64,000 bases of DNA. Source: Shimia aestuarii (GTDB lineage: Bacteria > Pseudomonadota > Alphaproteobacteria > Rhodobacterales > Rhodobacteraceae). A model generated the notes under the pieces. It worked only from the letters and a program-made list of their open reading frames with translations, did not search any database and had not been told where the DNA came from. The translations under genes were made by a program, and so were the position numbers. Shown piece after piece: positions 6,231 to 58,439 of this stretch (position 1 is its first letter; each line of letters begins with the position of its first letter). The stretch is taken from assembly GCF_900114635.1 (NCBI RefSeq), contig NZ_FOTQ01000002.1, positions 62,001-126,000 on the forward strand, given 5' to 3'.

Positions 6231-6292
6231 TTTCCTTTTGCCAGAAATATCCCGGGGGAGTCGTCGTTTGCGACGACGGGGGCAGCGCCCCC
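6231..6292. repeat. Modular intergenic element, copy a (with palindrome and G/C hairpin)
   Basis: Starts 8 bases after the GFA stop. The T-rich arm TTTCCTTTTGCCAGAAATAT runs into a CCCGGGGG core, followed by a GTCGTCG/CGACGAC hairpin (6260-6277) and a GGGGGC/GCCCCC hairpin (6278-6292). The same order of modules, with different hairpin sequences, recurs at 54713-54788 and in reverse at 58381-58439. Confidence 0.75.
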
Positions 6293-6307
6293 TCCCACCT
6301 CCACAAC

Positions 6308-6350
6308 AAAAAAAACGGCCCCCGCAAATCTGCCGGGGCCGCTTCCTTTT
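6308..6350 (-). terminator. Terminator of the dctPQM operon
   Basis: CGGCCCC (6316-6322) pairs with GGGGCCG (6335-6341). On the minus strand the stem is followed by a T run (the A run at 6308-6315), immediately after the dctM stop at 6366. The plus strand also shows CTTCCTTTT after the stem, so it may work in both directions. Confidence 0.75.
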
Positions 6351-6365
6351 CTCTCGTCACCAACG

Positions 6366-7745
6366 CTAGTTGGTTATGATCTCTGGTCCCATGAACGTGT
6401 TGGGCAGGAAGGTCGAGATCGCCGGTATATAGGTCACCATGATCAGGAACACGAAGAGCACGGCGAGGAACGGCAGCGCGGCGCGCACAACCCCCATCAT
6501 CGGCATTCCCGCAACCCCCGAGGTCACGAACAGGTTGAGCCCCACAGGTGGCGTGATCATCCCGATCTCCATGTTCACCACCATGATGATACCCAGGTGG
6601 ATCGGGTCGATGCCCAGCTGGATCGCGATCGGGAACACCAGCGGCGCCACGATCACAAGGAGGCCCGACGGCTCCATGAACTGACCACCGATCAACAGGA
6701 TGACGTTGACCACGATCAGGAACATCACCGGACCAAAGCCCGCGCTCAGCATCGCACCGGCGATGTGCTGCGGCACCTGCTGTTCGGTCAGAACATGCTT
6801 GAGGATCAGCGCGTTCGCGATCACGAACAACAGCGTCACGGTCAGCTTGCCCGCCTCGAACAGCGTGTGCTTGGTATCGCCATGGAAGAAGGCCGTGATC
6901 AGCGCGTAAGGCTTGCGCAGCAGGCTCGACTTCTCACCACCATTGGCCTCTTCCGAGAGTGGTCCCATGTCCTTGTAGATGAAGGATGCGATCAGGAAGG
7001 AATAGACGGCGGCCACGGCGGCGGCTTCAGTTGGGGTAAAGATCCCCCCGTAGATCCCACCAAGGATGATCACGATCAGGAACAGACCCCAGCCGGCCTC
7101 GCGGCCCGCGGTAAAGATCTCGCCCCAGCCCAGCCAGTCACCCTTGGGCAGGTTCTTGACCTTGGCCATGACATAAATCGTCACCATCAGCATGACACCG
7201 GCCATCAGGCCCGGAATGACCCCGGCAAGGAACATCCGCCCCACCGACACTTCGACGGCGGCGGCGTAAACCACCATCACGATCGACGGCGGGATCAGGA
7301 TGCCCAGCGTACCCGCGTTACAGATCACACCGGCGGCGAATTCCTTGGAATAGCCCACCTGCCGCATGCCCGCGATCACGATCGACCCGATCGCCACAAC
7401 GGTTGCCGGAGACGACCCCGACAGGGCCGCGAACATCATACAGGCAAACACACCCGCAATCGCCAGACCGCCCGGAAGATGGCCCACACAGGCAATCGAG
7501 AACCGGATGATGCGGCGCGCCACGCCCCCGGTCGTCATGAAAGACGACGCAAGGATGAAGAACGGGATCGCAAGAAGGGTGAAATGCCCTTCAAAGGCTT
7601 CGAACAGGGTCCCCGCAACCGACGCCAGCGTCGCGTCCGAGAACAACAGCAAGAACATGATCGAGCTCAGACCAAGGGAAACCGCAATCGGAACCCCGAT
7701 CAGCAAGAGGCCGATCACCATCGCAAACAAGAGAACCACTTCCAT
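6366..7745 (-). CDS. dctM: TRAP transporter large permease DctM
   Basis: 459 residues with about 12 hydrophobic segments. It is the large integral-membrane subunit of a tripartite ATP-independent periplasmic transporter, which imports organic acids using the sodium or proton gradient. Family motifs include GSSPATVVAIGSI near residue 115 and a MITPPVGLNLF segment near 408. It overlaps the dctQ stop by one base and is the last gene of dctPQM, with a terminator directly after it. Slightly longer than classical DctM (about 440), because of a charged cytoplasmic insert near 270-290. Confidence 0.95.
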   Translation of the reverse strand: MEVVLLFAMVIGLLLIGVPIAVSLGLSSIMFLLLFSDATLASVAGTLFEAFEGHFTLLAIPFFILASSFMTTGGVARRIIRFSIACVGHLPGGLAIAGVFACMMFAALSGSSPATVVAIGSIVIAGMRQVGYSKEFAAGVICNAGTLGILIPPSIVMVVYAAAVEVSVGRMFLAGVIPGLMAGVMLMVTIYVMAKVKNLPKGDWLGWGEIFTAGREAGWGLFLIVIILGGIYGGIFTPTEAAAVAAVYSFLIASFIYKDMGPLSEEANGGEKSSLLRKPYALITAFFHGDTKHTLFEAGKLTVTLLFVIANALILKHVLTEQQVPQHIAGAMLSAGFGPVMFLIVVNVILLIGGQFMEPSGLLVIVAPLVFPIAIQLGIDPIHLGIIMVVNMEIGMITPPVGLNLFVTSGVAGMPMMGVVRAALPFLAVLFVFLIMVTYIPAISTFLPNTFMGPEIITN

Positions 7746-8410
7746 CAGTCATGCTCCCCTTGCTGAGCGCGTACTTCTTCAATCTCGTCTTCCACCTCAT
7801 GACTTGCCACCAGACGGTCGGTCTCACCGCGCCAGATCTGAAGGGCCGCCTGGAAAAAGCGGAAGGTCAAAAGGAACATCGACACCGGCAACACGAGATA
7901 CGGCACCACCTTGGGCAGCTTCTCGTATTCCTCGCCATAGTTGATCCAGTCTTCAAGGAAGCTCAGGAATCCGACCATCGGCACGTCCTGCACTTCGTAG
8001 AAGGACTGGCTGCGGAACTTGTCCTCGAACCCGGTCGGGAACCAGCGCCCGGAGGTCGGCGGCAAGTCGGCAAAGACGGCCCAGTAATCATAGGCACCCT
8101 TGAGGAGCAACATCGAGAAGACGAGGCAGCATGCCACCGAGATCATCCCCATGATGCGCGCCACGCCCGGCGACACCATGTTCAGAATGGCGTCCACCCC
8201 AAGGTGGCTGTGTTTCTTGACCGCATAAGAGGCACCCAAGAGCACCAGCCAGCCGAACATGAACACTGTAAGTTCCAGCGCCCAGAGAATATTAGAGTTG
8301 AACCCGAAGCGGGCAATGACGTTGGCGAAGGTCACCGCTGTCATGAGCCCGAGGAGTATCGCGATCAGCGTCTCCTCGATCCGGTCCACAAAGCTATGTT
8401 TGTGATGCAT
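7745..8410 (-). CDS. dctQ: TRAP transporter small permease DctQ
   Basis: 221 residues with four predicted membrane helices; the small integral-membrane subunit linking DctP and DctM. Between helices 3 and 4 there is an insert of roughly 60 residues (about 105-165, containing PPTSGRWFPTGFEDKF) that minimal DctQ proteins lack. Translationally coupled to dctM (ATGA). Separated from dctP by 163 bp containing a strong hairpin. Confidence 0.93.
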   Translation of the reverse strand: MHHKHSFVDRIEETLIAILLGLMTAVTFANVIARFGFNSNILWALELTVFMFGWLVLLGASYAVKKHSHLGVDAILNMVSPGVARIMGMISVACCLVFSMLLLKGAYDYWAVFADLPPTSGRWFPTGFEDKFRSQSFYEVQDVPMVGFLSFLEDWINYGEEYEKLPKVVPYLVLPVSMFLLTFRFFQAALQIWRGETDRLVASHEVEDEIEEVRAQQGEHD

Positions 8411-8501
8411 TGTTCCCGTGTCCCGTGGTTTTGGAGCAAATCGGCCCTTCCCTGTTCAGGCAGGGTCATTCGGGGCCTGATTTCACTCTCTTGATACAAG
8501 T

Positions 8502-8527
8502 CGGGCGGACCATTCGCGGCCCGCCCG
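8502..8527. promoter_or_regulatory. Hairpin between dctP and dctQ
   Basis: CGGGCGG and CCGCCCG form a perfect 7-bp stem around a 12-base loop, between the dctP stop and the dctQ start. No T run follows on either strand. Hairpins here are common in TRAP operons and probably protect the abundant dctP transcript; that role is inferred. Confidence 0.55.
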
Positions 8528-8573
8528 CCTCATTTTCACTGTCCCATGAAAATTTCCTGCAAGTCAGCGCGAC

Positions 8574-9578
8574 TTACATCGCCGCGTTGATGGCCTGTGC
8601 CGCGTCGATGTTTTCCTGGCCTACGTCATCCGAGAACTTGTCCCAGACGGGCTTCATCACGTCGACCCATTCCTGACGTTGTTCTGCGGTCAGGCTGCGG
8701 ATCGTGCCGCCGGCGTCGATGATCGACTGCTTGGCCGCGTTGTTTACGGCGGTCGACTCGGCGTTACGCACTTCGGTCACTTCCGACAGAATGGTCAGGA
8801 ACTGGTCACGCACGTCGGGCTCCAGGCTGTCCAGCCAGTCAACAGAGGTCACGACGAGATAGTCGATGATGCCGTGGTTGGTTTCGGTCACGCCGTCCTG
8901 AACTTCAAAGAACTTCTTGCCGTAGATGTTCGACCAGGTGTTCTCCTGTCCGTCCACAACGCCCTGCTGCAGCGCGCCGTACACTTCCGAGAAGGCCATT
9001 TTCTGGGGCGAACCACCGATGGCTTCCATCTGGGCAACCAGCACGTCCGACGACTGAACGCGGAACTTGAGACCGTTTGCATCCGACGGCGAAACCAGCG
9101 GCACGTTGGCCGACATCTGCTTCATGCCATTGTGCCAGTAGGCCAGACCCTGCAGGCCGCGGCGCTGCATGCTGTCCAGAAGGCCCTGACCTGCGTCCGA
9201 CGCCTGGAAGGCATCAACCGCGTTCACGTCCTTGAACATGAAGGGCAGATCGAAGATGCGGAATTTCTTGGTGAACTTCTCGAATTTCGACAGCGACGGT
9301 GCGGCAAGCTGCACGTCGCCCTGCAACATGGCTTCGAGAACCTTGTTGTCGTTGTAAAGCGTCGAGTTCGGGAAGACTTCCATGCAGGCCTTGCCGTTCA
9401 TCTCTTCATTCACGCGCTGTTCAAGCAGCGACGCGGCGATCCCCTTGGGGTGCTTGTCGGTGTTGGTCACGTGGCTGAACTTGATGACGATCTCGCCGTC
9501 ATCACAGGCGGCCTGCGCGGCGGTTCCGGCGGTCACGGCCAGTGCGAGCGCCGTTGCGGCTGTGGTCAGAAATTTCAT
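8574..9578 (-). CDS. dctP: TRAP transporter periplasmic substrate-binding protein DctP
   Basis: 334 residues with a clear signal peptide cleaved after GTAAQA (about residue 23). DctP-family features: IVIKFSHVTNTDKHPKG near the N-terminus, the conserved Arg in GLKFRVQSSDV (about 172) that binds the substrate carboxylate, and GQENTWSNIYGKKF near 210. It delivers a carboxylate, probably a C4-dicarboxylate, to DctQM. The exact substrate cannot be read. The upstream gap of 359 bp contains two tandem dyads that look like activator sites. Confidence 0.93.
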   Translation of the reverse strand: MKFLTTAATALALAVTAGTAAQAACDDGEIVIKFSHVTNTDKHPKGIAASLLEQRVNEEMNGKACMEVFPNSTLYNDNKVLEAMLQGDVQLAAPSLSKFEKFTKKFRIFDLPFMFKDVNAVDAFQASDAGQGLLDSMQRRGLQGLAYWHNGMKQMSANVPLVSPSDANGLKFRVQSSDVLVAQMEAIGGSPQKMAFSEVYGALQQGVVDGQENTWSNIYGKKFFEVQDGVTETNHGIIDYLVVTSVDWLDSLEPDVRDQFLTILSEVTEVRNAESTAVNNAAKQSIIDAGGTIRSLTAEQRQEWVDVMKPVWDKFSDDVGQENIDAAQAINAAM

Positions 9579-18963: not shown

Positions 18964-19020
18964 CCGTTGCACCGTGCGCTAAGTTAATTTCGCCCTGTGA
19001 CGCCGAATTCCAGTTCCGAA

Positions 19021-19060
19021 ACCGACGTAATACCGACACAATACCGACGTGTTGCCGAAC
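19021..19060. repeat. 11-bp tandem ACCGACGNNAT repeats, locus 1
   Basis: Three consecutive 11-bp units, ACCGACGTAAT, ACCGACACAAT and ACCGACGTGTT, then a partial unit GCCGAAC. They lie between the P450 stop and the Lrp regulator stop. The period is close to one DNA turn, so each unit presents the same face. The same unit, also ending in CCGAAC, recurs at 48644-48683. Confidence 0.8.
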
Positions 19061-22994: not shown

Positions 22995-23852
22995 ATGACC
23001 GAGCAAAAACCAGTGACCGAAGCCCAAGCCACCGCCGTACCCAAGGTACCCACCCTGCCCGACGCGCAAACCGTGACCGAGGTGCAGCACTATACCGACC
23101 GCCTGTTTTCCTTCAAATGCACGCGGCCCGCGACGCTGCGTTTCCGCTCAGGCGAATTTGTCATGATCGGCCTGATGGGCGATCCCGATCCCAAGACCGG
23201 CAAGCAGAAACCGCTTCTGCGCGCCTATTCCATCGCCTCGCCCAGCTGGGACGAGGAACTGGAATTCTATTCGATCAAGGTCCAGGACGGCCCGCTGACC
23301 TCCAAGCTCCAGCATATCAAACCGGGCGACGAAATCATCCTGCGCCCCAAACCCGTCGGCACGCTGGTGCATGACGCGCTTCTGCCCGGCAAACGCATCT
23401 GGTTCTTTGCCACCGGCACCGGCTTTGCCCCCTTCGCCTCGCTGCTGCGCGAACCGCAGACCTACGAGGACTACGACGAGGTGATCATCACCCACACCTG
23501 CCGCGAAGCGGGCGAGCTGACCTATGGGCGCAACATCATCGACTCTCTCAAGGACGATGAACTGCTGAACGAAGTGATCGGCGAAGGCTTCTGGAAAAAG
23601 ATCAAGTACTACCCGACCACCACCCGCGAAGAGAGCGCCAAGATGGGCCGGATCACCGACCTGATCAACTCGGGCGAAGCTTACAAGGATCTCGGCGTCG
23701 AACCGCTCTGCCCGCAAAACGACCGCGCCATGATCTGTGGCAACCTCGCTTTCAACCTTGAACTCAAGGACATGCTCGAGGCCGCTGGCCTCGAAGAAGG
23801 CGCCAATTCAAAGCCTGCGCAATACGTGGTCGAAAAAGCGTTTCTGGATTGA
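22995..23852 (+). CDS. fpr: Ferredoxin-NADP+ reductase
   Basis: 285 residues of the plant-type FNR superfamily, bacterial subclass. FAD binding is shown by LLRAYSIASPSW (about 78-88), NADP binding by FATGTGFAPFASLL (about 140) and MICGN (about 247). The C-terminus is QYVVEKAFLD. It would supply reduced ferredoxin to the sulfite reductase or oxidise it under redox stress. ATG at 22995 is chosen because the upstream in-frame extension has no conserved sequence. Its last 11 codons and terminator are duplicated 0.8 kb downstream. Confidence 0.93.
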   Translation: MTEQKPVTEAQATAVPKVPTLPDAQTVTEVQHYTDRLFSFKCTRPATLRFRSGEFVMIGLMGDPDPKTGKQKPLLRAYSIASPSWDEELEFYSIKVQDGPLTSKLQHIKPGDEIILRPKPVGTLVHDALLPGKRIWFFATGTGFAPFASLLREPQTYEDYDEVIITHTCREAGELTYGRNIIDSLKDDELLNEVIGEGFWKKIKYYPTTTREESAKMGRITDLINSGEAYKDLGVEPLCPQNDRAMICGNLAFNLELKDMLEAAGLEEGANSKPAQYVVEKAFLD

Positions 23853-23943
23853 ACAATCCCCACATCTGAAACACTAGGAAACCCCGGCTTGATCGCCGGG
23901 GTTTCTTTTTGGGAGACCAACCGACGCCCACCAGGCGGGACAA
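23820..23943. repeat. Direct repeat copy 1: fpr 3' end plus terminator
   Basis: About 124 bp covering the last fpr codons, the stop, the terminator and about 35 bp beyond (to a CACCAGGCGGG block). It is repeated with roughly 80% identity (estimated by eye) at 24593-24715, on the other side of the acetyltransferase gene. Confidence 0.85.
23878..23910 (+). terminator. fpr terminator
   Basis: GAAACCCCGGC and GCCGGGGTTTC form a perfect 11-bp stem around TTGATC, followed by TTTTT: a textbook intrinsic terminator. Confidence 0.92.
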
Positions 23944-24592: not shown

Positions 24593-24625
24593 CAATACGT
24601 GGTCGAAAAAGCGCTCCTGGATTGA
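24593..24625 (+). pseudogene. Remnant of an fpr-like gene 3' end
   Basis: Eleven codons reading QYVVEKALLD and stop, against QYVVEKAFLD in intact fpr. They are followed by the same spacer and terminator. Upstream in the same frame I can follow about 10 more codons (EAPAARKRTPK) that do not match fpr, so the homology ends abruptly. Confidence 0.7.
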
Positions 24626-24650
24626 GCGATACCCAAATCTGAACCGTCAA

Positions 24651-24682
24651 AAACCCCGGCTTGGTCGCCGGGGTTTGTTTTT
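24651..24682 (+). terminator. Duplicated terminator
   Basis: AAACCCCGGC and GCCGGGGTTT around TTGGTC, followed by GTTTTT. It now serves the acetyltransferase gene. Confidence 0.88.
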
Positions 24683-24755
24683 GGGATGCCAACCGAGGCC
24701 CACCAGGCGGGGCAACTGTGCCTTGGCAGAGCCGATCTCAATTGACCGCTTGAGG

Positions 24756-28975: not shown

Positions 28976-29009
28976 CTTCATTTTGCCAAAAATACTCCCG
29001 CCGGAGGCG
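28976..29009. repeat. Modular intergenic element, copy b (CCGCCGGAGG subtype)
   Basis: CTTCATTTTGCCAAAAATAC followed by TCCCGCCGGAGGCG. Lies between the convergent methyltransferase and coxM genes. Nearly identical to copy d at 40748-40781. Confidence 0.75.
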
Positions 29010-29016
29010 ATCCGAC

Positions 29017-29802
29017 CTATCCGCAGGCGGCCACGGCCCGCTTGGTCAGCACCGCAATCAGATGCGCGCGATAGGCCGCCGTGCCGTGCAGGTCGGAAAT
29101 CATTCCATCCGCACCCGGCGCCGCGGGCACCGCATCGGCCGAGAAATTCCCGGACAGCGCCTCCTCCGCAGCACTCCAGCGGAAGACGCCTTCCTCGGAC
29201 GCCCCGGTCACGGCCACACGGACACCATCGGCAAACCTGGCGACGAACACACCCACCAGCGCAAAGCGCGACGCGGGCTGTTCAAACTTCTGGTAGTTTG
29301 CCGCCTCCGGCACCGGAAAACGTACCTCGGTGATAATCTCCCCCTCGTCCAGTGCCGTAGCAAACATGCCCTGGAAGTAATCATCCGCCGCGATCTCGCG
29401 GGCGTTGGTGACGATCGTCGCCCCCGAAGCCAGCGCCGCCGACGGGTAACAGGCCGACGGGTCGTTATTGGCCAGCGAGCCGCCAATCGTGCCGCGTGCC
29501 CGCACCGCCGGGTCCCCGATATTGCACGCGAGCGCTGCCAGCGCCGGGTAGCTGCCTGCATTGGCCGCCACGTCCGCATGCACGGTCGCCCCGCCCACGC
29601 AAACCTGTCCGTCATCGCTCATGCAGACACCCTTGATATCGGCAATCCCTGCGAGGCTGACCAGCTTGGACGGGCTGGCGAGGCGCTGCTTGAGCGTCGG
29701 GATCAGGGTCTGCCCCCCGCCCAGCGCCTGCGCATCTTCCCCGGCTAGCGCGGCCACCGCGTCGGCCACCGATGTCGGCTTTTCAAAGTCAAAATTGTAC
29801 AT
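29017..29802 (-). CDS. coxM: CO-dehydrogenase-type medium (FAD) subunit CoxM
   Basis: 261 residues. FAD-binding motifs of the xanthine-oxidase-family medium subunit are visible: ALGGGQTLIPTLKQRL (about residue 28) and GTIGGSLANNDPSACYP (about 103). It passes electrons from the 2Fe-2S clusters of CoxS to the quinone pool or another acceptor. Start MYNFDFEKP is preceded by AAGGAAAAGAG. It is 104 bp downstream of coxL, with modular element copy c between. Confidence 0.92.
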   Translation of the reverse strand: MYNFDFEKPTSVADAVAALAGEDAQALGGGQTLIPTLKQRLASPSKLVSLAGIADIKGVCMSDDGQVCVGGATVHADVAANAGSYPALAALACNIGDPAVRARGTIGGSLANNDPSACYPSAALASGATIVTNAREIAADDYFQGMFATALDEGEIITEVRFPVPEAANYQKFEQPASRFALVGVFVARFADGVRVAVTGASEEGVFRWSAAEEALSGNFSADAVPAAPGADGMISDLHGTAAYRAHLIAVLTKRAVAACG

Positions 29803-29840
29803 CTCTCTTTTCCTTCCCAAGGAAGCCGGGTCCAACCCCT

Positions 29841-29887
29841 CTTCCTTTTGCCAGAAATATCCTCGGGGGTCCGTGGGCAGACAGCCC
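29841..29887. repeat. Modular intergenic element, copy c
   Basis: CTTCCTTTTGCCAGAAATAT then CCTCGGGGG, then GGGC/GCCC hairpin arms (29875-29887). It sits between coxL and coxM inside a minus-strand operon. It is the one copy whose T-rich arm does not follow a stop codon in the same direction. Confidence 0.65.
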
Positions 29888-29906
29888 CCGGTCCAACCCT
29901 CTCATC

Positions 29907-32270
29907 CTATCCCTGCATCGCAGCCCAGACGCGCGACGGCGACACGGGCATGTCGATATGGGTCACGTCATGACCGCCCGACTGCAACGCGTCGATCACC
30001 GCGTTCACCACCGAAGGCGGCGAACCGATGGCTCCGGCCTCACCACAACCCTTCACTCCAAGCGGGTTATGGGTACAGGGCGTCTGGCTGGAATGATCGA
30101 CATTGTAGAACGGCACATCATCCGCACGCGGCATGGCGTAATCCATGTAAGACGCGCTCAGAAGCTGACCATCCTCATCATAGACACAGCCTTCCAGCAA
30201 CGCCTGACCGATGCCCTGGCCAATGCCGCCATGCACCTGACCATCCACGATCATCGGGTTGACGATATTGCCAAAGTCATCCGCCGCCGAGAAGCGTTCG
30301 ATGGTGACTTTCCCGGTCTCCGGGTCCACCTCGACCTCACAGCAATAGGCGCCCGAGGGATAGGTAAAGTTCGCCGGGTCGTAAAACGCGGTTTCCTCCA
30401 GCCCCGGTTCGATGTCTTCGAGTGGATAGTTATGGGGCACATAGGCCGCAAGGGTCACATCGCCCCAGGCCACCGATTTGTCGGTCCCGGCGACGCTGAA
30501 CTGACCATCCTTCAACTCGATATCGGCCTCTGCGGCTTCCATCAGGTGGGCCGCGATCTTCTTGGCCTTGTTGATGATCTTTTCCGTGGCCCGCACCATG
30601 GCCGAGCCACCCACAGCCAGCGAGCGCGAGCCATAGGTGCCCATGCCCATCGGTGTGTTGGCAGTATCGCCATGCACGATTTCCACCATGCTCTCGTCGA
30701 TCCCGATCATCTCGGCAATCACCTGCGGGAAGCTGGTTTCATGCCCCTGACCGTGGCTGTGGCTGCCGGTCATGACCACGAGGCCACCCGTGGCATTCAC
30801 CCGCACCGTTGCGCTTTCATAGAGACCAGCCCGTGCGCCCAATTGCCCGACAAGGTTACTCGGCGCGATGCCGCAGGCCTCGATGTAACAGTTCACACCC
30901 AGCCCGCGCAGCTTGCCCTTGGCTTCGCTTTCCTTGCGCCGGGCTTCAAAGCCCGAAAGGTCCGCGATCTTCTCCAGCGCATCCATCGTGCCGTGATAAT
31001 CCCCGGTGTCATACTCGACCGCCACGGGCGTGGCATAGGGGAACTCGGTGATGAAATTCTGACGGCGTAGCGCAATCGGATCAACGCCCAGCTCACGCGC
31101 GGCCTTGTCGATTACCCGCTCCAGCTGGAATGTCGCCTCGGGGCGCCCGGCCCCACGATAGGCGTCCACCGGCACCGTGTTGGTAAACACCGCCTTGACG
31201 TTCACATAGATCACTGGCGTGCGGTAGTTCCCGGCCATCAACGTGCCATGTAGCCAGGTCGGCACAGACGGTGCAAAGGTCGACAGATACGCACCCATAT
31301 TGGCATAGGTCTCGGTGCGCACCGCGGTAAAGTTGTTGTCCTTGTCCAGCGCCAGTTCGATCTTGGTGACGTGGTCACGGCCATGCGCGTCCGACATGAA
31401 CGCTTCCGAACGGGAAGCGGTCCATTTGACCGGACGGTTGATCGCCTTGGCGGCAAAGGTACAGAACGCCTCTTCCGCGTAATGGAAGATCTTGGTGCCA
31501 AAGCCCCCACCCACATCCGGCGCAATCACGCGCAGCTTGTGTTCCGGAATGCCCAGCACAAACGCGCCCATCAAAAGGCGGATCACATGCGGGTTCTGGC
31601 TGGTGGTATAAAGCGTGCTGTCATCCGTGGCGCGATTGTAATCGCCAATGGCAACGCGTGGCTCCATCGGGTTGGCAATCAGGCGGTTGTTGACCAGTTC
31701 CAGCGTCGTCACATGTGCCGCATCTTTGATCGCCTGATCAACGGCATCCTTGTTCTCTTCAACAAACCCCCAGTCATAACAAAGGTTGTTTTCAAGGTCG
31801 TCATGCACCTTGGTGGCGCCCTCGGCCAGCGCCGCCTTCATGTCGACCACGGCAGGAAGCTCTTCGATGTCGAGCTCGATCGCCTCGGCCGCATCGCGCG
31901 CCTGCTCATAGGTGTCGGCCACCACGGCGGCAATCGGATCGCCCACATGGCGCACCTTGCCCTGTGCGAGCACCGGGTGTGCCGGCTCCTGCATCGGGTT
32001 GCCATGGCGGTCCGTCACCTGCCAGCCGCAGGGAATGCCGCCAACGCCTTCAAAATCGGCGCCGGTGAAAATCCGCACCACGCCCGGCATCGCCGCGGCG
32101 ACGTCGGTACCGATCCCGTTGATCTTCCCATGCGCCACATCCGAGCGCAGGAAATGCACATAGGCCTGACCGTTTACGTTGATATCGTCTGTGTAATTGC
32201 CCGTCCCGGTCAGAAACCGGACGTCTTCGCGCCGCTTCGGGCTGGCGCCAATGCCATGATCTTTCGGCAT
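29907..32270 (-). CDS. coxL: Form II aerobic CO-dehydrogenase-type large (Mo) subunit CoxL
   Basis: 787 residues from the ATG at 32270, with GGGAGGA upstream. Molybdenum hydroxylase large subunit with the Mo-pterin segments GGGFGTKI (about 258) and GQGHETSFPQV (about 520), and the catalytic Glu in KGCGEAGAIG (about 745). The active-site loop reads AYRGAGR near residue 372. That is the form II signature; true form I CO dehydrogenases have AYxCSFR with the Cu-binding Cys. Form II enzymes are widespread in roseobacters and do not reliably confer CO oxidation, so the substrate may be another small molecule. Confidence 0.93.
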   Translation of the reverse strand: MPKDHGIGASPKRREDVRFLTGTGNYTDDINVNGQAYVHFLRSDVAHGKINGIGTDVAAAMPGVVRIFTGADFEGVGGIPCGWQVTDRHGNPMQEPAHPVLAQGKVRHVGDPIAAVVADTYEQARDAAEAIELDIEELPAVVDMKAALAEGATKVHDDLENNLCYDWGFVEENKDAVDQAIKDAAHVTTLELVNNRLIANPMEPRVAIGDYNRATDDSTLYTTSQNPHVIRLLMGAFVLGIPEHKLRVIAPDVGGGFGTKIFHYAEEAFCTFAAKAINRPVKWTASRSEAFMSDAHGRDHVTKIELALDKDNNFTAVRTETYANMGAYLSTFAPSVPTWLHGTLMAGNYRTPVIYVNVKAVFTNTVPVDAYRGAGRPEATFQLERVIDKAARELGVDPIALRRQNFITEFPYATPVAVEYDTGDYHGTMDALEKIADLSGFEARRKESEAKGKLRGLGVNCYIEACGIAPSNLVGQLGARAGLYESATVRVNATGGLVVMTGSHSHGQGHETSFPQVIAEMIGIDESMVEIVHGDTANTPMGMGTYGSRSLAVGGSAMVRATEKIINKAKKIAAHLMEAAEADIELKDGQFSVAGTDKSVAWGDVTLAAYVPHNYPLEDIEPGLEETAFYDPANFTYPSGAYCCEVEVDPETGKVTIERFSAADDFGNIVNPMIVDGQVHGGIGQGIGQALLEGCVYDEDGQLLSASYMDYAMPRADDVPFYNVDHSSQTPCTHNPLGVKGCGEAGAIGSPPSVVNAVIDALQSGGHDVTHIDMPVSPSRVWAAMQG

Positions 32271-32290
32271 CTCATATCCTCCCATTGATC

Positions 32291-32353
32291 GGTGCGTGAA
32301 ATCACGCACCCTACATCCCGGTGTCACTGGTAGGGTGCGTGTTCACACGCACC
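32291..32353. promoter_or_regulatory. Nested inverted repeats between coxS and coxL
   Basis: Two local hairpins, GGTGCGTG-AAAT-CACGCACC (32291-32310) and GGTGCGTG-TTCA-CACGCACC (32334-32353). In addition CACGCACCCTAC (32303-32314) can pair with GTAGGGTGCGTG (32330-32341) as a 12-bp stem that excludes both. The mutual exclusivity resembles an attenuator. It may equally be a pair of REP-like palindromes placed between the 2Fe-2S and Mo subunit genes to set their ratio. Confidence 0.65.
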
Positions 32354-36305: not shown

Positions 36306-37565
36306 TCAGGGACCACCCAAGGCAGCCATCAGACGGGCTTTTTCACCCAGATCGTCGGGCCGCGAAATGGCCTCTGCAAGCTCTTCGAGCGTGGCAATGG
36401 AATGCCCGGCCCGGAAACTGTCGACATGCGGCAGCATGGCACGAATGCCTTGGGCTTTGGGCGCGAACCCGTCCCAGCGCAGCAACGGATTGAGCCAGAT
36501 CAGCCGCCGCGCACTCAGTTGCAGCCGCTTCACCTCATGCGCCAGCGCCTCCGGGTCCCCCCGGTCAAGCCCGTCCGTGATCAGCAGAACCACCGCCCCC
36601 TGCCCCATCACCCGGCGCGACCAGTCACGGTTGAAATCATGCAGGCAATCCCCGATCCGCGTGCCGCCTTCCCAATCCTGCGCCTCGGCCCCCGCCGCCG
36701 CCAGTGCGGAATCCACGTCGCGCGTGGCGAGATGGCGGGTGATATTGGTCAACCGCGTGCCAAATGTGAACCCATGCACACGCGCCCAGCCCGCGCCCTT
36801 GTGATTGGCGACCGCATGGAGAAAATGCAAAACCATCCGACTATATTGGCTCATCGAGCCCGAAATATCGCAAAGCACCACGAGGTTGGGCCAGCGCATG
36901 CGTGGGCTCTTGCGGGCCAGCATCTGCACCTCGCCCCCCTGCCGCATGGCGTTGCGCAACGTGCGCCGCCAATCGGCGCGCGCGCCCAACGGATCAGGCT
37001 TGCCCCGACGCGAGGCGATCGGCTGCACAGGCAGTGACATCCGCGCCAGCATCCGTTTCGCCGCCGCCACCTCCTCGGTGCTCATCTGTTCGAAATCCAG
37101 CGTACGCAGGCGTTCTTCGGTCGACATGGTGAGCGAGGCATCGACCTCGATCTCCGTGCCTTCCTCCTCGAACTCCATGTCCGGCACATCCGCCTGTACC
37201 CCGTCAAGCAACGCCTCGGCGGCGCGCTTCTCTCCAGCCTGCCCGCCCCGTTCTTCCTGCACACCGCGCACCGCGGGCAGCATCATCGCCATCATGTGCT
37301 CCATGAACCGCGGATCGCGCCAATACAGGCGAAAGACCTGCGCAAACACCGTGCGGTGTTCGGGCCGGGACACGAAACAGGCATGCAGCGTCCAGTAAAA
37401 ATCGCGCTTTTCGCTAAACCCCGCCGCCTCGACCGCACGGATCGCGTCTATCACGCGACCTGGGCCAATCGGCAAACCCGCCTTGCGCAACGCCTGGGCA
37501 AACCACGTGATATTATGGGTCAGCTTGGGGTTTTCGGGGATCTCCAGAGGCGCGTATTCAGCCAT
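36306..37565 (-). CDS. coxE: CoxE, VWA-domain (MIDAS) protein
   Basis: 419 residues. A C-terminal von Willebrand A domain with the MIDAS motif CDISGSMSQYS (about residue 238) and later Thr/Asp sites (LITDGLDRG, about 340). The N-terminal helical part (1-130) is typical of CoxE. It works with the MoxR ATPase CoxD to mature the metal site of the CO dehydrogenase or related enzymes. A region at 130-150 is strongly acidic (DMEFEEEGTEIEVD). Confidence 0.92.
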   Translation of the reverse strand: MAEYAPLEIPENPKLTHNITWFAQALRKAGLPIGPGRVIDAIRAVEAAGFSEKRDFYWTLHACFVSRPEHRTVFAQVFRLYWRDPRFMEHMMAMMLPAVRGVQEERGGQAGEKRAAEALLDGVQADVPDMEFEEEGTEIEVDASLTMSTEERLRTLDFEQMSTEEVAAAKRMLARMSLPVQPIASRRGKPDPLGARADWRRTLRNAMRQGGEVQMLARKSPRMRWPNLVVLCDISGSMSQYSRMVLHFLHAVANHKGAGWARVHGFTFGTRLTNITRHLATRDVDSALAAAGAEAQDWEGGTRIGDCLHDFNRDWSRRVMGQGAVVLLITDGLDRGDPEALAHEVKRLQLSARRLIWLNPLLRWDGFAPKAQGIRAMLPHVDSFRAGHSIATLEELAEAISRPDDLGEKARLMAALGGP

Positions 37566-37573: not shown

Positions 37574-37623
37574 GCGGGGGGCCAGCCCCCCGCTCCCCCC
37601 GGGGTATTTTCGGAAAAAGAAAG
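37574..37623. repeat. Modular intergenic element, copy e (reverse)
   Basis: Read on the minus strand it begins 3 bases after the coxD stop: CTTTCTTTTTCCGAAAATAC, CCCCGGGG, then a perfect 9-bp hairpin GCGGGGGGC/GCCCCCCGC (37574-37593). The middle palindrome is absent. coxE starts 9 bases beyond the hairpin. Confidence 0.75.
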
Positions 37624-37625: not shown

Positions 37626-38534
37626 TCAGGCCGGCTCCAAAGCCGCGCGCGCCTCGTCCAGCAGGCGTTTGGCTTCGGAGCCCTGCAGCTTGGCGATATC
37701 ATCCTGATACTTCAGAACCGCGCCCAGCGTGTCGGCAATGACCTGCGGCGACAACTCCAGCACATCCAAAGCCAACAGGCATTTCGCCCAGTCGATTGTT
37801 TCGGCCACACCGGGTTTCTTGAACAGGTCCTCGGTGCGCAAACGCTGGACAAACGCCACCACTTCGCGACTCAGCGTTTCGGAGGCTTCTGGCGCGCGTT
37901 TGGCAAGGATTTCCAGCTCGCGCGTGAAATCAGGATAGTCGACCCAGTGATAAAGGCAGCGGCGCTTGAGCGCATCATGCACTTCACGAGTGCGGTTCGA
38001 GGTGACAATCACGATTGGCGGCTCAGGGGCCACAATGGTCCCGATCTCGGGGATTGTGACCTGAAAATCACTGAGCGCCTCGAGCAAAAACGCCTCGAAC
38101 GGCTCATCCGTGCGATCCAGCTCATCGATGAGCAACACGGGCGCACCGGCCGGATCGGGCCGCATGGCCTGCAAAAGCGGGCGTTCGACAAGGTAATCCG
38201 GGCCAAACAACTCCTGTTGCAGCACCTCGCGATCCGCATTGCCGCCCGCCTCGGCCGTGCGAATGGCCACCATCTGCGCAGCAAAGTTCCACTCATAGAC
38301 CGCGCTCGACGCATCCAGCCCCTCGTAACACTGCAACCGGATCAACCTGCGCCCCAACCCCGCGGCAATCGCCTTGGCGATCTCGGTCTTGCCGACCCCG
38401 GCCTCGCCCTCAAGGAAAATCGGCCGCCCCAGCCGCAGCGACAGGAACACCACCGTCGCCAGTGCCCGCCCGCAGACATAGCCCTGGCCGCCCAGCATCT
38501 CCTGAACCGCGTCGATACTCTCGAGATCCTGCAT
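37626..38534 (-). CDS. coxD: CoxD, MoxR-family AAA+ ATPase
   Basis: 302 residues. Walker A GEAGVGKTEIAKAI (about 42-55), Walker B VLLIDELDRTDE (about 127), sensor 1 IVIVTSNRTRE (about 165). The MoxR family provides ATP-driven chaperone activity for metal-centre assembly; CoxD is reported to help build the Cu/Mo-S site of CODH. First gene of the cox cluster in transcription order. No clear promoter is recognisable in the 185 bp upstream. Confidence 0.93.
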   Translation of the reverse strand: MQDLESIDAVQEMLGGQGYVCGRALATVVFLSLRLGRPIFLEGEAGVGKTEIAKAIAAGLGRRLIRLQCYEGLDASSAVYEWNFAAQMVAIRTAEAGGNADREVLQQELFGPDYLVERPLLQAMRPDPAGAPVLLIDELDRTDEPFEAFLLEALSDFQVTIPEIGTIVAPEPPIVIVTSNRTREVHDALKRRCLYHWVDYPDFTRELEILAKRAPEASETLSREVVAFVQRLRTEDLFKKPGVAETIDWAKCLLALDVLELSPQVIADTLGAVLKYQDDIAKLQGSEAKRLLDEARAALEPA

Positions 38535-38719
38535 GGCACCCCTCCTTTGCCCCGCGTCAGGCTGCACGAGCCCCGCCCACCCCGTCAACCGCTCCGACAC
38601 GCGACAAAAGTTGTAGATTGGGGCACCCTTCCCAACTTTTGCCGCAAATGGTGTGTATTTCTCCGTTCAAGAGCGCAAAAAGCGCCGGTATGATGTGGTC
38701 GGTTTCGAGGATTGAGCAG

Positions 38720-39705: not shown

Positions 39706-40746
39706 ATGACCCAAAGCCTGATCCTTGCCCGCCCCGATGACTGGCATCTGCACCTGCGCGATGGCGCGATGCTCGCTGCTGTTCTGCCCGAAACCGCGCG
39801 CCATTTCGCCCGTGCGATCATCATGCCCAACCTCGTGCCCCCCGTCGTCACCGGCGCACAGGCCGCCGCCTACCGCGACCGCATCCTGACCGCCCTGCCA
39901 GACGGCATGTCCTTCGAGCCGCTGATGACGCTCTACCTCACCGAGGACACCGATCCCGCGGACGTCGCCGCCGCCCATGCCAGCGGTCTGGTCAAGGCGG
40001 TGAAACTCTATCCGGCGGGCGCCACCACCAATTCCGCCTCCGGGGTCTCGGATTTCACCAAGGTGCGCGCCGTTCTCGAGAAAATGGCCGAGATCGGCCT
40101 GCCGCTCTGCGTGCATGGCGAAGTCACAGACCGCGACATCGACATCTTCGACCGCGAAGCCGTGTTCATCGACCGCGTGCTCGATCCGATCCGCAAGGCG
40201 ACGCCGGGCCTGCGCGTGGTAATGGAACATATCACCACCAAGAACGGCGTCGACTATGTGTTGGCCAATGACACCGATCTCGGAGCAACGATCACGGTTC
40301 AGCACCTGATCCTTGATCGCAATGACATGCTGGTGGGGGGGATGCGACCGCATTACTACTGCCTGCCGATCCTGAAGCGCTCCGACCACCGCAAGGCGTT
40401 GCACGCCGCCGCTATCTCTGGCGATGCGCGCTTCTTCCTCGGCACCGACAGCGCTCCCCACCCGACCCACGCGAAAGAGGCCGAATGCTGTTCGGCCGGG
40501 TGCTTTACCGCGCCCAACGCCCTGCCCATCCTTGCCCAGACCTTCGAAACAGCCGGGGCATTGGACAAGCTCGAAGGCTTCATCTCGCGCCACGGTCCCG
40601 CCTTCTACGGACTTCCGGTCAACAGTGACACGATCACTCTCACCAAATCCGACGCCCCCACGACCTTCCCCGCCAAGATCGACGCAGGTGACCACACCGT
40701 CACCGTCTTTGATCCCGGCTTCCCGGTCTACTGGAGCGTGACCTGA
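39706..40746 (+). CDS. pyrC: Dihydroorotase, class II
   Basis: 346 residues. Zinc ligands HLHLRD at residue 15, the carbamylated Lys in [13 protein letters not shown] (about 102) and later His residues in VHGEVTD and VMEHITT. The substrate Asp is in [13 protein letters not shown] near 247. It closes carbamoyl-aspartate to dihydroorotate. The next gene, pyrE, catalyses the step after dihydroorotate dehydrogenase, with an element (copy d) in between. Confidence 0.97.
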
Positions 40747-40747: not shown

Positions 40748-40781
40748 CTTCATTTTGCCAGAAATACTCCCGCCGGAGGCG
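40748..40781. repeat. Modular intergenic element, copy d (CCGCCGGAGG subtype)
   Basis: Starts 2 bases after the pyrC stop: CTTCATTTTGCCAGAAATAC then TCCCGCCGGAGGCG. It differs from copy b by one base in the shared 34 bases as read by eye. It lies in the 75-bp gap before pyrE. Confidence 0.78.
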
Positions 40782-40821: not shown

Positions 40822-41502
40822 ATGATCCCCACCTCCTATCCCTCGCAAGAGGAAATCGCTCGCCTCACCGCCCGGATGCTGCTTGAAATCGGCGCTGTGA
40901 ACTTCAACACGGACGAGCCCTATACGCTCGCCTCCGGCCTGCCCTCGCCAAGCTATATCGATTGCCGTAAGCTGATCTCCTTCCCGCGTATCCGCGCTAC
41001 CCTGATGGATTTCCTGACCGTCACCGTCATGCGCAACGCAGGCTTTGAAGCCTTCGACAATATCGCGGGCGGCGAAACTGCCGGCATCCCCTTTGCCGCG
41101 CTGGTGGCCGAACGCATGGCTCTACCGATGACCTATGTGCGCAAGAAACCCAAAGGCTATGGCAAGAATGCCCGCATCGAAGGCGCAATGCGCGAAGGTG
41201 AACGTGTCCTGCTGGTCGAGGATCTGACCACCGACGGCGGCTCCAAGCTGTCCTTCGTGGACGCGATCCGTGACACCGGCGCCACCTGCGGCCACACGGC
41301 GGTGATCTTCTATTATGACATCTTCCCCGAGACGACCAAAACGCTCGGGGATCATGGCGTTGAGCTGCACCACCTTTGTACCTGGTGGGACGTGCTGGCC
41401 GAAGCCAAAGCCCAGGGTGCCTTCTCCGAAGAAACCCTTGCGGAAGTCGAATCCTTCTTGCGCGACCCGCGCGCGTGGCAAGAGGCCCGCATGAAGGGCT
41501 GA
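40822..41502 (+). CDS. pyrE: Orotate phosphoribosyltransferase
   Basis: 226 residues. The PRPP-binding motif [13 protein letters not shown] (about residue 131) and the substrate loop [19 protein letters not shown] (about 102) are typical of PyrE. It joins orotate and PRPP into OMP. The C-terminal extension after the core is about 40 residues, as in other roseobacters. An intrinsic terminator follows. Confidence 0.96.
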
Positions 41503-48476: not shown

Positions 48477-48643
48477 GCAACACCTCCACTCCGCACCACC
48501 GTCAAAAGTACTCGGCACCATCAACCACCCAGCCAAAATCGTTGAAACGCCCACCCGCGGTCGGGCGCCACCCGGCCAATCCCTAACAAAACCCTGCGTA
48601 CCCTCCCTGAATACTACCCAAAAACACGATCCGCGAAATCCAT

Positions 48644-48683
48644 ACCGACGCAATACCGACGTGATACCGACGCAATACCGAAC
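48644..48683. repeat. 11-bp tandem ACCGACGNNAT repeats, locus 2
   Basis: ACCGACGCAAT, ACCGACGTGAT and ACCGACGCAAT in direct succession, then ACCGAAC. It has the same unit length, sequence and CCGAAC end as 19021-19060. It lies 100 bp upstream of the PqiA-like gene. Confidence 0.82.
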
Positions 48684-51195: not shown

Positions 51196-51217
51196 GCAGA
51201 TCTCCCCCCAATTTTCG

Positions 51218-54414: not shown

Positions 54415-54430
54415 TGCCCTTAAAAGGGCA
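54415..54430. promoter_or_regulatory. Perfect 7-bp dyad upstream of the small conserved protein
   Basis: TGCCCTT-AA-AAGGGCA, 18 bases before the start codon at 54448 and next to the ribosome-binding region. It could fold in mRNA or bind a protein. No partner is known. Confidence 0.45.
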
Positions 54431-54447
54431 AGGAACACAGGTATCCC

Positions 54448-54705: not shown

Positions 54706-54712
54706 CCCTTCA

Positions 54713-54788
54713 CTTTCTTTTTCCCCAAATACCCCGGGGTGAAGCTTGAAAATCCTGCAGGATTTTCAAGCTGAGGGGCTGGCCCCTC
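54713..54788. repeat. Modular intergenic element, copy f (with 30-bp palindrome)
   Basis: T-rich arm CTTTCTTTTTCCCCAAATAC and CCCCGGGG (54713-54739), then a perfect 30-bp palindrome at 54743-54772 (15+15, arm AGCTTGAAAATCCTG), then a GAGGGGC/GCCCCTC hairpin with a 2-base loop (54773-54788). It lies between the small conserved gene and the SDR gene. Confidence 0.8.
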
Positions 54789-54824
54789 ACCCTCCCTCTT
54801 GACCTCCTGCGCCCAAGGGCGCAC

Positions 54825-55493: not shown

Positions 55494-55589
55494 CGCCCCT
55501 TCCCGGCGCGAACACGGGGTCGCGATACTTGCCCCCCGCCCATGGCTCCACTAGACAGGAGCCAAGAGGCGGTTAGGGGCAGGCCAAAC

Positions 55590-56372
55590 ATGCGTATTCT
55601 CATCACCAATGACGACGGCATCAACGCGCCCGGACTGGCCGTGCTGTACAAGATCGCCGCCGAGGTGGCAGGCAAGGATGGCGAAGTCTGGACCGTCGCA
55701 CCGGCGTTCGAACAATCCGGCGTGGCCCACTGCATCAGCTACACCCACCCCACGATGATCGCCAAGATGGGTGACCGCAGCTTTGCCGCCGAAGGAAGCC
55801 CCGCAGACTGCGTGCTTGCGGGCGTACATGACGTGATGAAGGGCCGCCGCCCCGACCTGATCCTCTCCGGCGTGAACCGGGGCAACAACTCCGCCGAGAA
55901 CGCGCTCTATTCGGGCACGCTCGGCGGCGCCATGGAAGGCGCGTTGCAGGGCATTCCCTCCATGGCCCTGTCGCAATATCTTGGCCCCGCCAACTACACC
56001 GCAGAAGACCCGTTCGACGCCGCCGGACAATTCGGGGCCGACGTGGTGCGCAAGGTATTGGCCGCAACACCGGACAACCCATCGGCCTACCATCTGTTCT
56101 ACAACATCAATTTCCCGCCGGTCATGGCCGACGACGTCAAGGGCGTGCGGGTCACGACCCAGGGCATGCGCCAGGGCACCAATTTCTCGGTCGAACCGCA
56201 CGCTTCGCCTTCGGGGCGGCGTTTCCTGTGGGCCAAGGGCGGCAACCAGCAGATCCAGACCGAAGCAGGCAGCGACGCTGCCGCCAATCTTGACGGATAC
56301 ATTTCCGTCACGCCCATGCGCGCTGACCTGACCGCGCATGATGCGCTTGCGGCGCTGAAGGGGATCGAATGA
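55590..56372 (+). CDS. surE: 5'-nucleotidase SurE
   Basis: 260 residues with the metal-binding NDDG near residue 7, [19 protein letters not shown] (about 95) and the usual dimer region. SurE removes phosphate from nucleoside monophosphates and polyphosphate under stress. The stop overlaps pcm by 4 bp, giving the conserved surE-pcm-nlpD order. Confidence 0.96.
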
Positions 56373-57025
56373 GCCTCGAAGACGACGCCACCGCCGAACG
56401 CAAGATGCAGTTCCTCTTTGCGCTGCGCTCAAAGGGGGTCATGGATCAGGCGGTCCTGACGGCCATGGAACGCATTGACCGGGGCCGCTTCGTGCGCGGC
56501 CTCTTTGCCGAACGCGCCTACGAGGACACCCCGCTGCCCATTGCCTGTGGCCAAACCATTTCCCAGCCTTCCGTGGTCGCCCTGATGACGCAGGCCCTTG
56601 AGGTCAGCGCACGTGACAAGGTGCTCGAAGTTGGCACCGGTTCGGGCTATCAGGCCGCGATCCTGAGCCTTCTGGCGCGGCGCGTCTACACCGTGGACCG
56701 GCACAAACGACTGGTGCGCGAGGCACGCGAGGTCTTCGAAGAACTGGACCTCGTGAATATTACTGCCTTTACCTCGGACGGCAGCTTCGGCCTGCCCGAT
56801 CAGGCCCCCTTTGATCGCATCATCGTGACCGCCGCCGCCGAGGACCCGCCCGGCCCCCTCTTGGCCCAATTGAAGATCGGCGGTATCATGGTGCTGCCCG
56901 TGGGCCAGTCGGACACGGTGCAAAGCCTGATCCGCGTGCGGCGAACGGAGACCGGGTTTGACTATGATGAACTGCGCCCGGTGCGCTTTGTGCCCTTGAT
57001 CGAGGGCATCGCGCGCGATAATTGA
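56369..57025 (+). CDS. pcm: Protein-L-isoaspartate O-methyltransferase
   Basis: 218 residues. SAM-binding [15 protein letters not shown] (about 89-103) and the preceding [15 protein letters not shown] are diagnostic. It repairs L-isoaspartyl damage. The start overlaps the surE stop (ATGA). Confidence 0.96.
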
Positions 57026-57144
57026 GCATTTTGGGCCGGGTTTCCCCTTGGAAACAGCGAAATCCGCGCCATTTTGAAATTGACGAATGACAAACGGCCC
57101 CGGCGCAAGACCAACCAACAAGGGGCGCATGCGAGGGCATCGAG

Positions 57145-58371
57145 ATGGGAATTTTTCCGGGTAAACCTGCACGACTGGCGATGGCCGGGTTGTGTCTTGC
57201 GCTGGTCGCCGCCTGCGACGACGGATTTGACGTGGACCTGCGCGGCGGATTGGGCGCCGGGCTGGACACCACCACCGCCGCCAAGACCGCAACCGCCAAA
57301 CGCCCCCGCCCCGACAATCGCGGCATCATCTCCTATCCCGGCTACCAGGTGGCCGTGGCCAAGCGCGGCGATACGCTGAGCGATGTTTCGGCGCGCGTCG
57401 GCATCCCGGCAAGCGAACTGGCCAAGTACAATGGCATTCAGCCAGACGCCCGGTTGCGCGACGGCGAAATCGTTGCGCTGCCCTACAAGGTGGCTGAACC
57501 TTCCGCGGCAACCGGTGGCACCGGTATTGTGCAGCCCCCGCAAAGCGATGTCGACATTGCCGCCATCGCCGGAAATGCCATCGACAAGGCCGAACCCGAA
57601 GTGGCGACGGAAACGCTCGCCCCGGCCGCAGCACCCGCCCCCAATACCCAAACGGGCTATGAACCGATCCGCCACAAGGTCAAGCGCGGCGAAACGGCCT
57701 TTACCATCTCGCGGCTCTACAATGTCTCGGTACGCTCCCTTGCAGAATGGAACGGGCTGGGCAGCGACTTCACCATTCGCGAAAACCAGATCCTGCTGAT
57801 CCCCCCGGCCGATCCCGTGGCCGAGAAAAAGGCAAAGAGCACATCGTCGACCTCTGCAGCGGCCCCCGCCGCGGCAGCAGCCGCAGCAGCGACCACGCTG
57901 CCCGGTCAGGGATCACCGACGCCGACGCCGCCCAGCTCGACCAAGCCGCTGCCCCCGGATGACACCAAGACCAAGGTTGCTGCGCCGCAATCCCCGGATC
58001 TCGGCAAGACGCAGTCCGCCAGCAGCGCGCGCATGAGCTATCCGGTCGACGGCAAGATCATCCGCCCCTATTCCAAGGGCAAGAACAACGGCATTGATAT
58101 CGCGGGCAAAGCCGGCACCCCGGTCAAGGCAGCTGCCGATGGCAAGGTTGCCGCAATCACCACGGATGCGGACGATGTCAAGATTGTCGTGCTGCGCCAC
58201 AGCGACAATCTCATGACGGTCTATTACAACGTCGATACGGTGAAAGTGTCCAAGGGGGCCAGCGTCAAAAGGGGCGAGGCCCTTGCCGTACTGCCCGCCA
58301 AAGACAGTTTCGTGCATTTCGAGGTTCGCAAGGGCTTCGACAGTGTCGACCCGATGCCCTACCTGAAATAA
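57145..58371 (+). CDS. NlpD-like lipoprotein with LysM domains and degenerate M23 domain
   Basis: 408 residues. Lipobox LALVAAC (Cys about 27). LysM domains near residues 70-110 (VAVAKRGDTLSDVSARVGI) and 173-220 (HKVKRGETAFTISRLYNV), a Pro/Ala/Thr linker, then an M23 fold (about 290-405). The zinc ligands are lost: the first His motif reads NNGIDIAG near 313, and the HxH motif reads FVHFEV near 388. As with E. coli NlpD, a non-catalytic domain would activate an amidase rather than cut peptidoglycan. Position after surE-pcm agrees. Confidence 0.92.
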   Translation: MGIFPGKPARLAMAGLCLALVAACDDGFDVDLRGGLGAGLDTTTAAKTATAKRPRPDNRGIISYPGYQVAVAKRGDTLSDVSARVGIPASELAKYNGIQPDARLRDGEIVALPYKVAEPSAATGGTGIVQPPQSDVDIAAIAGNAIDKAEPEVATETLAPAAAPAPNTQTGYEPIRHKVKRGETAFTISRLYNVSVRSLAEWNGLGSDFTIRENQILLIPPADPVAEKKAKSTSSTSAAAPAAAAAAAATTLPGQGSPTPTPPSSTKPLPPDDTKTKVAAPQSPDLGKTQSASSARMSYPVDGKIIRPYSKGKNNGIDIAGKAGTPVKAAADGKVAAITTDADDVKIVVLRHSDNLMTVYYNVDTVKVSKGASVKRGEALAVLPAKDSFVHFEVRKGFDSVDPMPYLK

Positions 58372-58380
58372 CTTGCCGCA

Positions 58381-58439
58381 GGGGCGCTGCCCCGTCTCAG
58401 CAAGCTGAGTCTCCCCGGGGTATTTTTGGAAAAAGAAAG
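58381..58439. repeat. Modular intergenic element, copy g (reverse, full)
   Basis: GGGGC-GCT-GCCCC (58381-58393), CTCAGC-AA-GCTGAG (58396-58409), then CTCCCCGGGG and TATTTTTGGAAAAAGAAAG. It is the same three modules as copy f in the opposite orientation, with a different middle palindrome. For nlpD on the plus strand it reads as hairpins followed by TATTTTT, so it could terminate; the DUF815 stop lies 20 bases beyond. Confidence 0.78.

Follow-up and report, generated by a model that had tools for sequence, protein, structure and literature searches.

The 64-kb window analyzed here (the whole 64,000-nucleotide stretch, positions 62,001 to 126,000, of Shimia aestuarii contig NZ_FOTQ01000002.1) holds seven copies of a dispersed modular element, in which a 12-nucleotide (nt) arm is joined through a two-base spacer (NN) to an 8-nt core that can be followed by hairpins. 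All seven copies described in an earlier note on this DNA are present; two of them, d and g, are on the minus strand, so that the positions 37574 and 58381 given for them are their hairpin ends on the plus strand.

Copy a, 6231..6292, plus strand: arm 6231-6242, NN 6243-6244, core AAATATCC 6245-6252, G-run 6254-6258, palindrome 6259-6277, GGGGGCAGCGCCCCC hairpin 6278-6292.
Copy b, 28976..29008, plus strand: arm 28976-28987, NN, core AAATACTC 28990-28997, CCGCCGGAGGC tail, no G/C hairpin.
Copy c, 29841..29891, plus strand: arm 29841-29852, NN, core AAATATCC 29855-29862, G/C hairpin; between CoxL-like (29907-32327, minus strand) and CoxM-like (29017-29835, minus strand) open reading frames (ORFs).
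Copy d, 37574..37623, minus strand: arm 37623-37612, NN, core AAATACCC 37609-37602, G/C hairpin; between AAA ATPase (37626-38600, minus strand) and CoxE-like (36306-37565, minus strand) genes.
Copy e, 40748..40780, plus strand: arm 40748-40759, NN, core AAATACTC 40762-40769, CCGCCGGAGGC tail; between amidohydrolase (39706-40746, plus strand) and phosphoribosyltransferase (40822-41502, plus strand) genes.
Copy f, 54713..54788, plus strand: arm 54713-54724, NN, core AAATACCC 54727-54734, palindrome 54743-54772, GAGGGGCTGGCCCCTC hairpin 54773-54788.
Copy g, 58381..58439, minus strand: arm 58439-58428, NN, core AAATACCC 58425-58418, palindrome, GGGGCGCTGCCCC hairpin 58393-58381.

The modules had been assigned correctly for copies a, f, and g (inner palindrome and G/C hairpin), c (hairpin only), and b (neither), but d and e had been swapped: the G/C hairpin alone is found in c and d, and both b and e lack palindrome and hairpin and carry CCGCCGGAGGC instead. 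Six of the seven arms were said to follow a stop codon read in the same direction, and we find five. Copy a lies downstream of an ORF with a GFA domain (ends 6223), d of the AAA ATPase gene (ends 37626, minus strand), e of the amidohydrolase gene (ends 40746), f of a small ORF without a Pfam match (ends 54705), and g of a DUF815 gene (ends 58459, minus strand); stricter gene calls leave out the ORFs upstream of a and f. Copies b and c have a gene start on the arm side and a stop on the hairpin side. Copies c, d, and e occupy gaps of ∼60 to 105 bp between consecutive genes, the range depending on the CoxM start. We infer that these three flanking gene pairs form operons and that the amidohydrolase and phosphoribosyltransferase genes are pyrC-pyrE; a strong terminator in any of these gaps would be costly.

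In the genome to which the window belongs (G000, 4.23 Mb), the arm pattern CTTNNTTTTNCCNNAAATA has 125 exact matches (71 on the plus and 54 on the minus strand) and its reversed form has none, and a longer pattern with YYC, allowing up to two mismatches, gives 171 matches, again with none for its reversal, so that the counts are far above chance. What stays constant is a 22-bp signal in two parts, [12-nt arm]-NN-AAATAYYC, with a pyrimidine-rich arm, to which GC hairpins are optional additions. In a profile built from a search-selected sample of 96 copies, C at −6, C at −5, and T at −1 carry 0.6 to 0.7 bit, the T at offset 1, the AAATA, and the final C being imposed by the search pattern and hence uninformative; the two bases between arm and core carry ∼0.5 bit per base and are purine-purine in 75 of the 96 copies. 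The tails of these copies are a G-run (69 copies), A-rich sequence (12), CCGCCGGAGGC (8), or something else (7). That the hairpin is the essential part of the element is not supported, as 27 of the 96 copies lack the G-run tail, while the arm and core are retained. A known RNA was rejected as the identity of the element by the absence of any Rfam match at the gathering score in the 64-kb window. Serine-recombinase half-sites have a layout of 12 bp plus a 2-bp center, and this identity was also rejected, since the two halves are not inverted repeats by eye.

Selection on structure, which the earlier note had suggested, is supported by covariation where hairpins are present. In fifteen gap-free 40-nt hairpins of equal length, taken from 42 of one hairpin class, helix 1 shows two-sided changes in 5 of 8 pairs with a covariation score reached by none of 500 shuffles, and both helices are paired in 210/210 cells; helix 2 is invariant and therefore uninformative on covariation. 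The mean stem length of inner segments of at least 12 nt (52 parsed, 51 distinct) is 7.6 bp versus 3.4 bp when shuffled, and the lengths of the two G-runs and of the C-run are correlated (0.47 to 0.62) over 67 parsed copies. Among single-sequence folds, 2 of the 6 tested stretches (copies g and d) were no stabler than shuffles. In G000 and in a second genome, G002, some element copies were also seen to be followed by a recurrent segment that contains CACGCCCAAC or a close variant (L046, L056, L062, and L323). Three of these four loci also have a hairpin and a GGGCGGGAGCGC-like end, and the segment resembles an additional module.

The strict pattern with CCGGGG was found in 66 of 100 Rhodobacteraceae genomes sampled at one per genus, with controls giving 0 in every row, and in 24 of 25 genomes within the genus, the window's own genome being included in both sets. 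This genus is probably Shimia, since the congeners G008 and G005 cannot be told by eye from named Shimia loci at the cox site. A sample of the class comprised 289 genomes, 4 of them Rhodobacteraceae; among the 285 other alphaproteobacteria, two match, with 1 and 3 copies, which is chance level because the reversed control matches four of these 285 genomes once each. BLAST matches were obtained in 25 plasmid records, large plasmids included, 24 of them from Rhodobacterales and 1 from Streptomyces. A phage origin was rejected: phage records gave one weak, unrelated match and viral contigs gave one. Two small genomes from other alphaproteobacterial families (G041:C28 and G055:C1/C3) were seen to hold 2 and 3 copies of the possibly related CTTGCTTTTACCnCAAATA. 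In agreement with the earlier note, which knew of no formal description of the element, none was found in the literature searched, a set that mostly excludes subscription journals, so that absence from it is no proof; a search by the motif letters returned unrelated subjects alone among the matches listed. In the available portion of PMC8632094, the Rhodobacterales motifs HRC-8-4 and uORFC-8-2 are tied to particular loci and are not dispersed repeats.

Each examined genome uses one to three main arm spellings, which we call dialects. Among 95 distinct sampled copies from G000, the arm is spelled CTTTCTTTTTCC in 41, CTTCATTTTGCC in 40, and CTTCCTTTTGCC in 12, with 2 singletons, and each spelling goes with its own core in 88 of the 95 copies (CTTTC with ACCC in 40, CTTCA with ACTC in 37, and CTTCC with ATCC in 11; 7 exceptions). 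Arms vary between genera and between congeners, with few spellings per genome. Among the matches listed, they read CTTTTTCTGGCC in G092, CTTCATCTTGCC in G089, CTTCTTTGGGT in G140, CTTCTTCGTTGT and TTTCATTGTGGC in G034, CTTCCTCTTGCC in G023, CTTCCTTTCGCC in G014, and CTTCTTTTGGCC, CTTCATTTTGCC, and TTTCATTGTTCC in G002. The CTTCATTTTGCC arm is joined to ACTC in G000 but to ATCC in G033; the coupling is therefore not structural, and base pairing in cis between arm and core was rejected as its cause. A divergent dialect with TTCTCAATG, a 9-nt arm followed by a longer spacer before AAATACCCC, was observed in G014 and G000 (for example, at G000:C18:752418), and one G000 site orthologous to a G002 copy holds a degenerate form of this type.

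To compare dialects at the same sites, we paired copy loci of G002 with G000 copies by their flanks (99 G000 and 72 G002 copies, with a register filter). This gave 21 orthologous pairs in the same place and orientation, with flanks 71 to 89% identical. Seven pairs share a dialect, with arm/core differences at 1 of 140 positions and NN differences at 8 of 14, and in the other 14 the arm or core has been switched, with differences at 59 of 280 and 20 of 28 positions, respectively. The number of differences per pair is bimodal (six pairs with 0, one with 1, one with 2, one with 3, seven with 4, four with 5, and one with 6), and most arms at the 21 pairs are a listed spelling of their own genome. 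Mean hairpin similarity is 19.8 for switched pairs and 22.7 for same-dialect pairs versus 4.5 for random nonorthologous pairs. Copy d and its G002 counterpart illustrate the switch: in both, a stop codon lies two bases upstream and the hairpin is nearly identical, while arm and core differ.

Two sites of the window were followed through further loci. Of 23 loci retrieved for the site of copy c, in the CoxL/CoxM gap, 4 are occupied (G000, G002, G014, and G016) and 19 have a short spacer, two of the latter being just 58 to 59% identical and thus candidate paralogues. The four congeners carry four arm spellings there, those of G000, G002, and G014 being among the spellings listed for these genomes, and the G014 copy has one extra base ahead of AAATA. 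The site of copy e is occupied in 4 of 25 loci (G000, G002, G005, and G013); of the remainder, one is truncated, two have a longer spacer that is unrelated or decayed, one has another sequence, and the rest have short spacers.

Within G000, 91 of the 96 sampled copies lie outside called genes. Dropping the 5 inside called genes and 1 without a neighbor left 90 intergenic copies, of which 38 lie in stop/stop gaps (21.5% of control gaps from the same loci), 47 in one-stop gaps (55% of control gaps), and 5 in start/start gaps (23% of control gaps). Copies thus prefer gene 3′ ends, which supports the earlier description of a modular dispersed element at such ends, and do so with either side facing the gene: a stop adjoins the arm side in 60 and the hairpin side in 63 of the 90. 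The data do not support an orientation tied to that of the upstream gene. Of 110 cases between tandem genes in five genomes, 56 have the element running the same way as the genes (16/30 in G000, 8/14 in G033, 4/11 in G083, 8/16 in G034, and 20/39 in G100), as judged with our own simple codon-usage gene caller, after exclusion of loci shorter than 6 kb and of any copy located within a called gene (4, 2, 7, 2, and 1, in the same order), and we rejected the orientation rule on this basis.

Orientation follows replication in three of six genomes. The strand reading from T arm to hairpin is the C-rich strand (negative GC skew) in 47 of 62 copies in G000, 24 of 27 in G033, and 40 of 51 in G002, and in 173 of 247 for the six genomes together by local GC skew; the lagging-sense strand is generally the C-rich one. 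Skew at fourfold sites gives 38/55 in G000, 24/27 in G033, 13/22 in G083, 20/32 in G034, and 34/53 in G100. For G033, where all 64 pattern copies were included, two orientation domains fit 57 copies, which none of 2,000 permutations reaches, and the genes themselves have no strand bias (204/407 on the negative-skew strand). Close pairs of copies (gap below 260 bp) face each other arm to arm in 30 of 30 cases, counted by regular-expression search in all fetched DNA and uncorrected for convergent gene pairs, and 15 of the 30 have gaps of 11 to 18 bp.

Another conserved module, made up of TTAACCTT or AAGGTTAA followed by CGGTACAGGCnGG..GCCGATGnCCG and then by a palindrome of variable sequence, is flanked by two inverted copies whose arms face it in 7 of 7 cases from six genomes (L005:1520-1669; L042:3102-3253, with a degenerate left copy; L087:10767-10904, minus strand; L119:20321-20462, minus strand; L177:16194-16340; L193:9745-9852; and L324:5644-5753). 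An acyl-CoA dehydrogenase gene lies near it in 4 of 5 scanned loci (L005, L087, L177, and L193 but not L324). The composite module has no Rfam match above gathering and may be a small RNA gene or cargo. Other repeats in the window include short tandem arrays with an 11-bp unit like AATACCGACGC (19019-19058 and 48642-48681; also L034 near 8170), once directly after an element copy, and a 93-nt direct repeat (23820-23912 and 24593-24685, at a distance of 773 bp) with a canonical hairpin and T-tract at its end.

The reading that we prefer, and on which we are evenly divided, is that of a repetitive extragenic palindromic (REP)-like dispersed DNA element, nearly confined to Rhodobacteraceae and read by a putative factor. 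The random orientation between tandem genes (56/110) argues for recognition as DNA rather than RNA, and the retention of the signal at old sites, the loose two-base spacer, the species-specific spelling, and the replacement in place point to a sequence-specific partner. The signal would be read by a trans-acting factor, or by a few paralogues, of drifting specificity, and existing sites would then be converted in place to the new dialect. The three genomes with a strand bias suggest a coupling to replication, such that recognition or spread might be linked to the replication fork. Once in mRNA, the hairpins could form 3′ structures like those of REPs, delaying exonucleases and insulating neighboring genes, without acting as terminators.

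Several observations weigh against this reading. The hairpins of 4 of the 14 switched pairs are no more alike than a typical random pair; the split into same and switched pairs was made by arm/core similarity, which renders the 1/140 partly circular; all 21 pairs together have 60 differences in 420 positions, about the flank level; and the spacer used for comparison is itself partly constrained, given its purine-purine preference. G100 has a marginal strand bias (34/53), and G083 (10/22) and G034 (18/32) have none; GC skew in the latter two is too weak for a usable strand test, and in G000 the bias comes down under fourfold-site skew. Named loci lie on the C-rich strand in 38 of 52 cases, or 22 of 35 (P = 0.18) without the shared cox site. 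No reading factor was identified, and the analysis shows neither transcription nor an RNA effect of the copies.

As far as the available portions of PMC3116915, PMC6006769, and PMC3733652 describe them, REPs, bacterial interspersed mosaic elements (BIMEs), and REP doublets forming hairpins (REPINs) resemble the element in being short intergenic repeats with palindromes, present in more than 100 copies and several groups per genome, with inverted pairs and a location at gene ends. Unlike REPs and REPINs with a REP-associated tyrosine transposase (RAYT), the element shows no enrichment of GTAG (9/95 copies versus 30.4 shuffled) or CGTC tags (42/95 versus 52.4) on either strand within 68 bases downstream of the core; 30 of 95 copies have a G[AG]CGGGG junction, and this junction includes part of the CGTC complement. 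The RAYT/Y1 transposase domain PF01797 was found in 0 of 13 genomes, with controls positive in 5 of 14, and mobilization by RAYT/IS200 was rejected accordingly. The constant part also differs in being bipartite and nonpalindromic, with dialects that differ at the same sites and a strand bias in three genomes.

More tentative is a family-wide dialect system in which fast-evolving DNA-binding factors, one per dialect, would read the 12-2-8 signal at the replication fork, a change of specificity would rewrite more than 100 sites in concert, and the linked hairpins would protect gene 3′ ends. The composite module flanked by inverted copies may be part of this machinery.

Bidirectional transcription terminators, whose hairpins would stop transcription from either side with the T arm or the opposite-strand TATTT as a weak U-tract, are an unlikely alternative, given the rarity of U-tracts and the position of copies c, d, and e within probable operons. 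The element does share a GC hairpin at gene 3′ ends with intrinsic terminators, the stop/stop preference and the covariation of helix 1 fit this explanation, and a canonical hairpin lies directly upstream with the arm as its T-tract in 12 of the 96 copies and upstream on the opposite strand in 11. A canonical hairpin with a T-tract within 120 bases downstream was, however, found in 4 of the 96 (a home-made scan without a chance control), the 27 copies without a G-run tail show the hairpin to be optional, orientation to tandem genes is random, and a terminator has no need of a genome-specific 12-nt spelling.

We regard as improbable a miniature mobile element moved by a single-strand enzyme at the lagging-strand template, with copies as insertions and dialects as successive invasions. 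In its favor are sites that are filled in some congeners and empty in others, the inverted pairs and the composite units, and an orientation that follows replication in 3 of 6 genomes, reminiscent of the lagging-strand insertions of IS200/IS605 (IS608); against it stand the absence of PF01797 from the 13 genomes, the short signal kept at orthologous sites, where switched copies often keep register and a similar hairpin, and the near lack of viral or phage matches.

A DNA uptake-like signal, favored by a receptor for transforming DNA and spread by biased uptake, with dialects as in Neisseriaceae, is quite improbable. Like DNA uptake sequences (DUS) and uptake signal sequences (USS), the element has genome-wide dialects with a common half and inverted pairs near gene ends; different dialects at the same site also fit, and its arm-facing pairs recall the inverted DUS pairs at terminators in the available text of PMC3630211 (DUS dialects) and PMC1852404 (TransTermHP). 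Whereas DUS/USS number ∼1,000 or more and occur also in coding DNA, the element is far rarer (171 copies), longer, mostly intergenic (5/96 inside called genes), equipped with hairpins, and present in two or three dialects in several genomes, with a replication-strand bias in three; near-misses are also few (171 with up to two mismatches to the longer pattern versus 125 exact for the shorter).

A polar chromosome-organization site (like FtsK-orienting polar sequences [KOPS], Chi, or Ter) read by a translocase or fork protein is highly improbable: the orientation domains of G033 track GC skew, whose sampled sign changes fall approximately at the domain borders, including a local flip at 822 to 842 kb, but skew and orientation disagree in the sample at 255 kb, 2 of 6 genomes show no bias, and the element is tied to gene 3′ ends, has several dialects per genome, and matches plasmids.

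Genome-specific dialects, in-place replacement, arm-facing pairs, and replication-strand bias were all missed in the earlier note, which was based on a single window. Short dispersed repeats are most often taken for terminators or for decaying remnants of mobile DNA; in the present element, what is constrained is a sequence signal, and congeners spell it differently at shared sites. Cultured marine bacteria could therefore be used to test whether dispersed DNA evolves in concert. The results also offer practical help with the annotation of gene ends in Rhodobacteraceae and predict a sequence-specific factor in an abundant ocean family.

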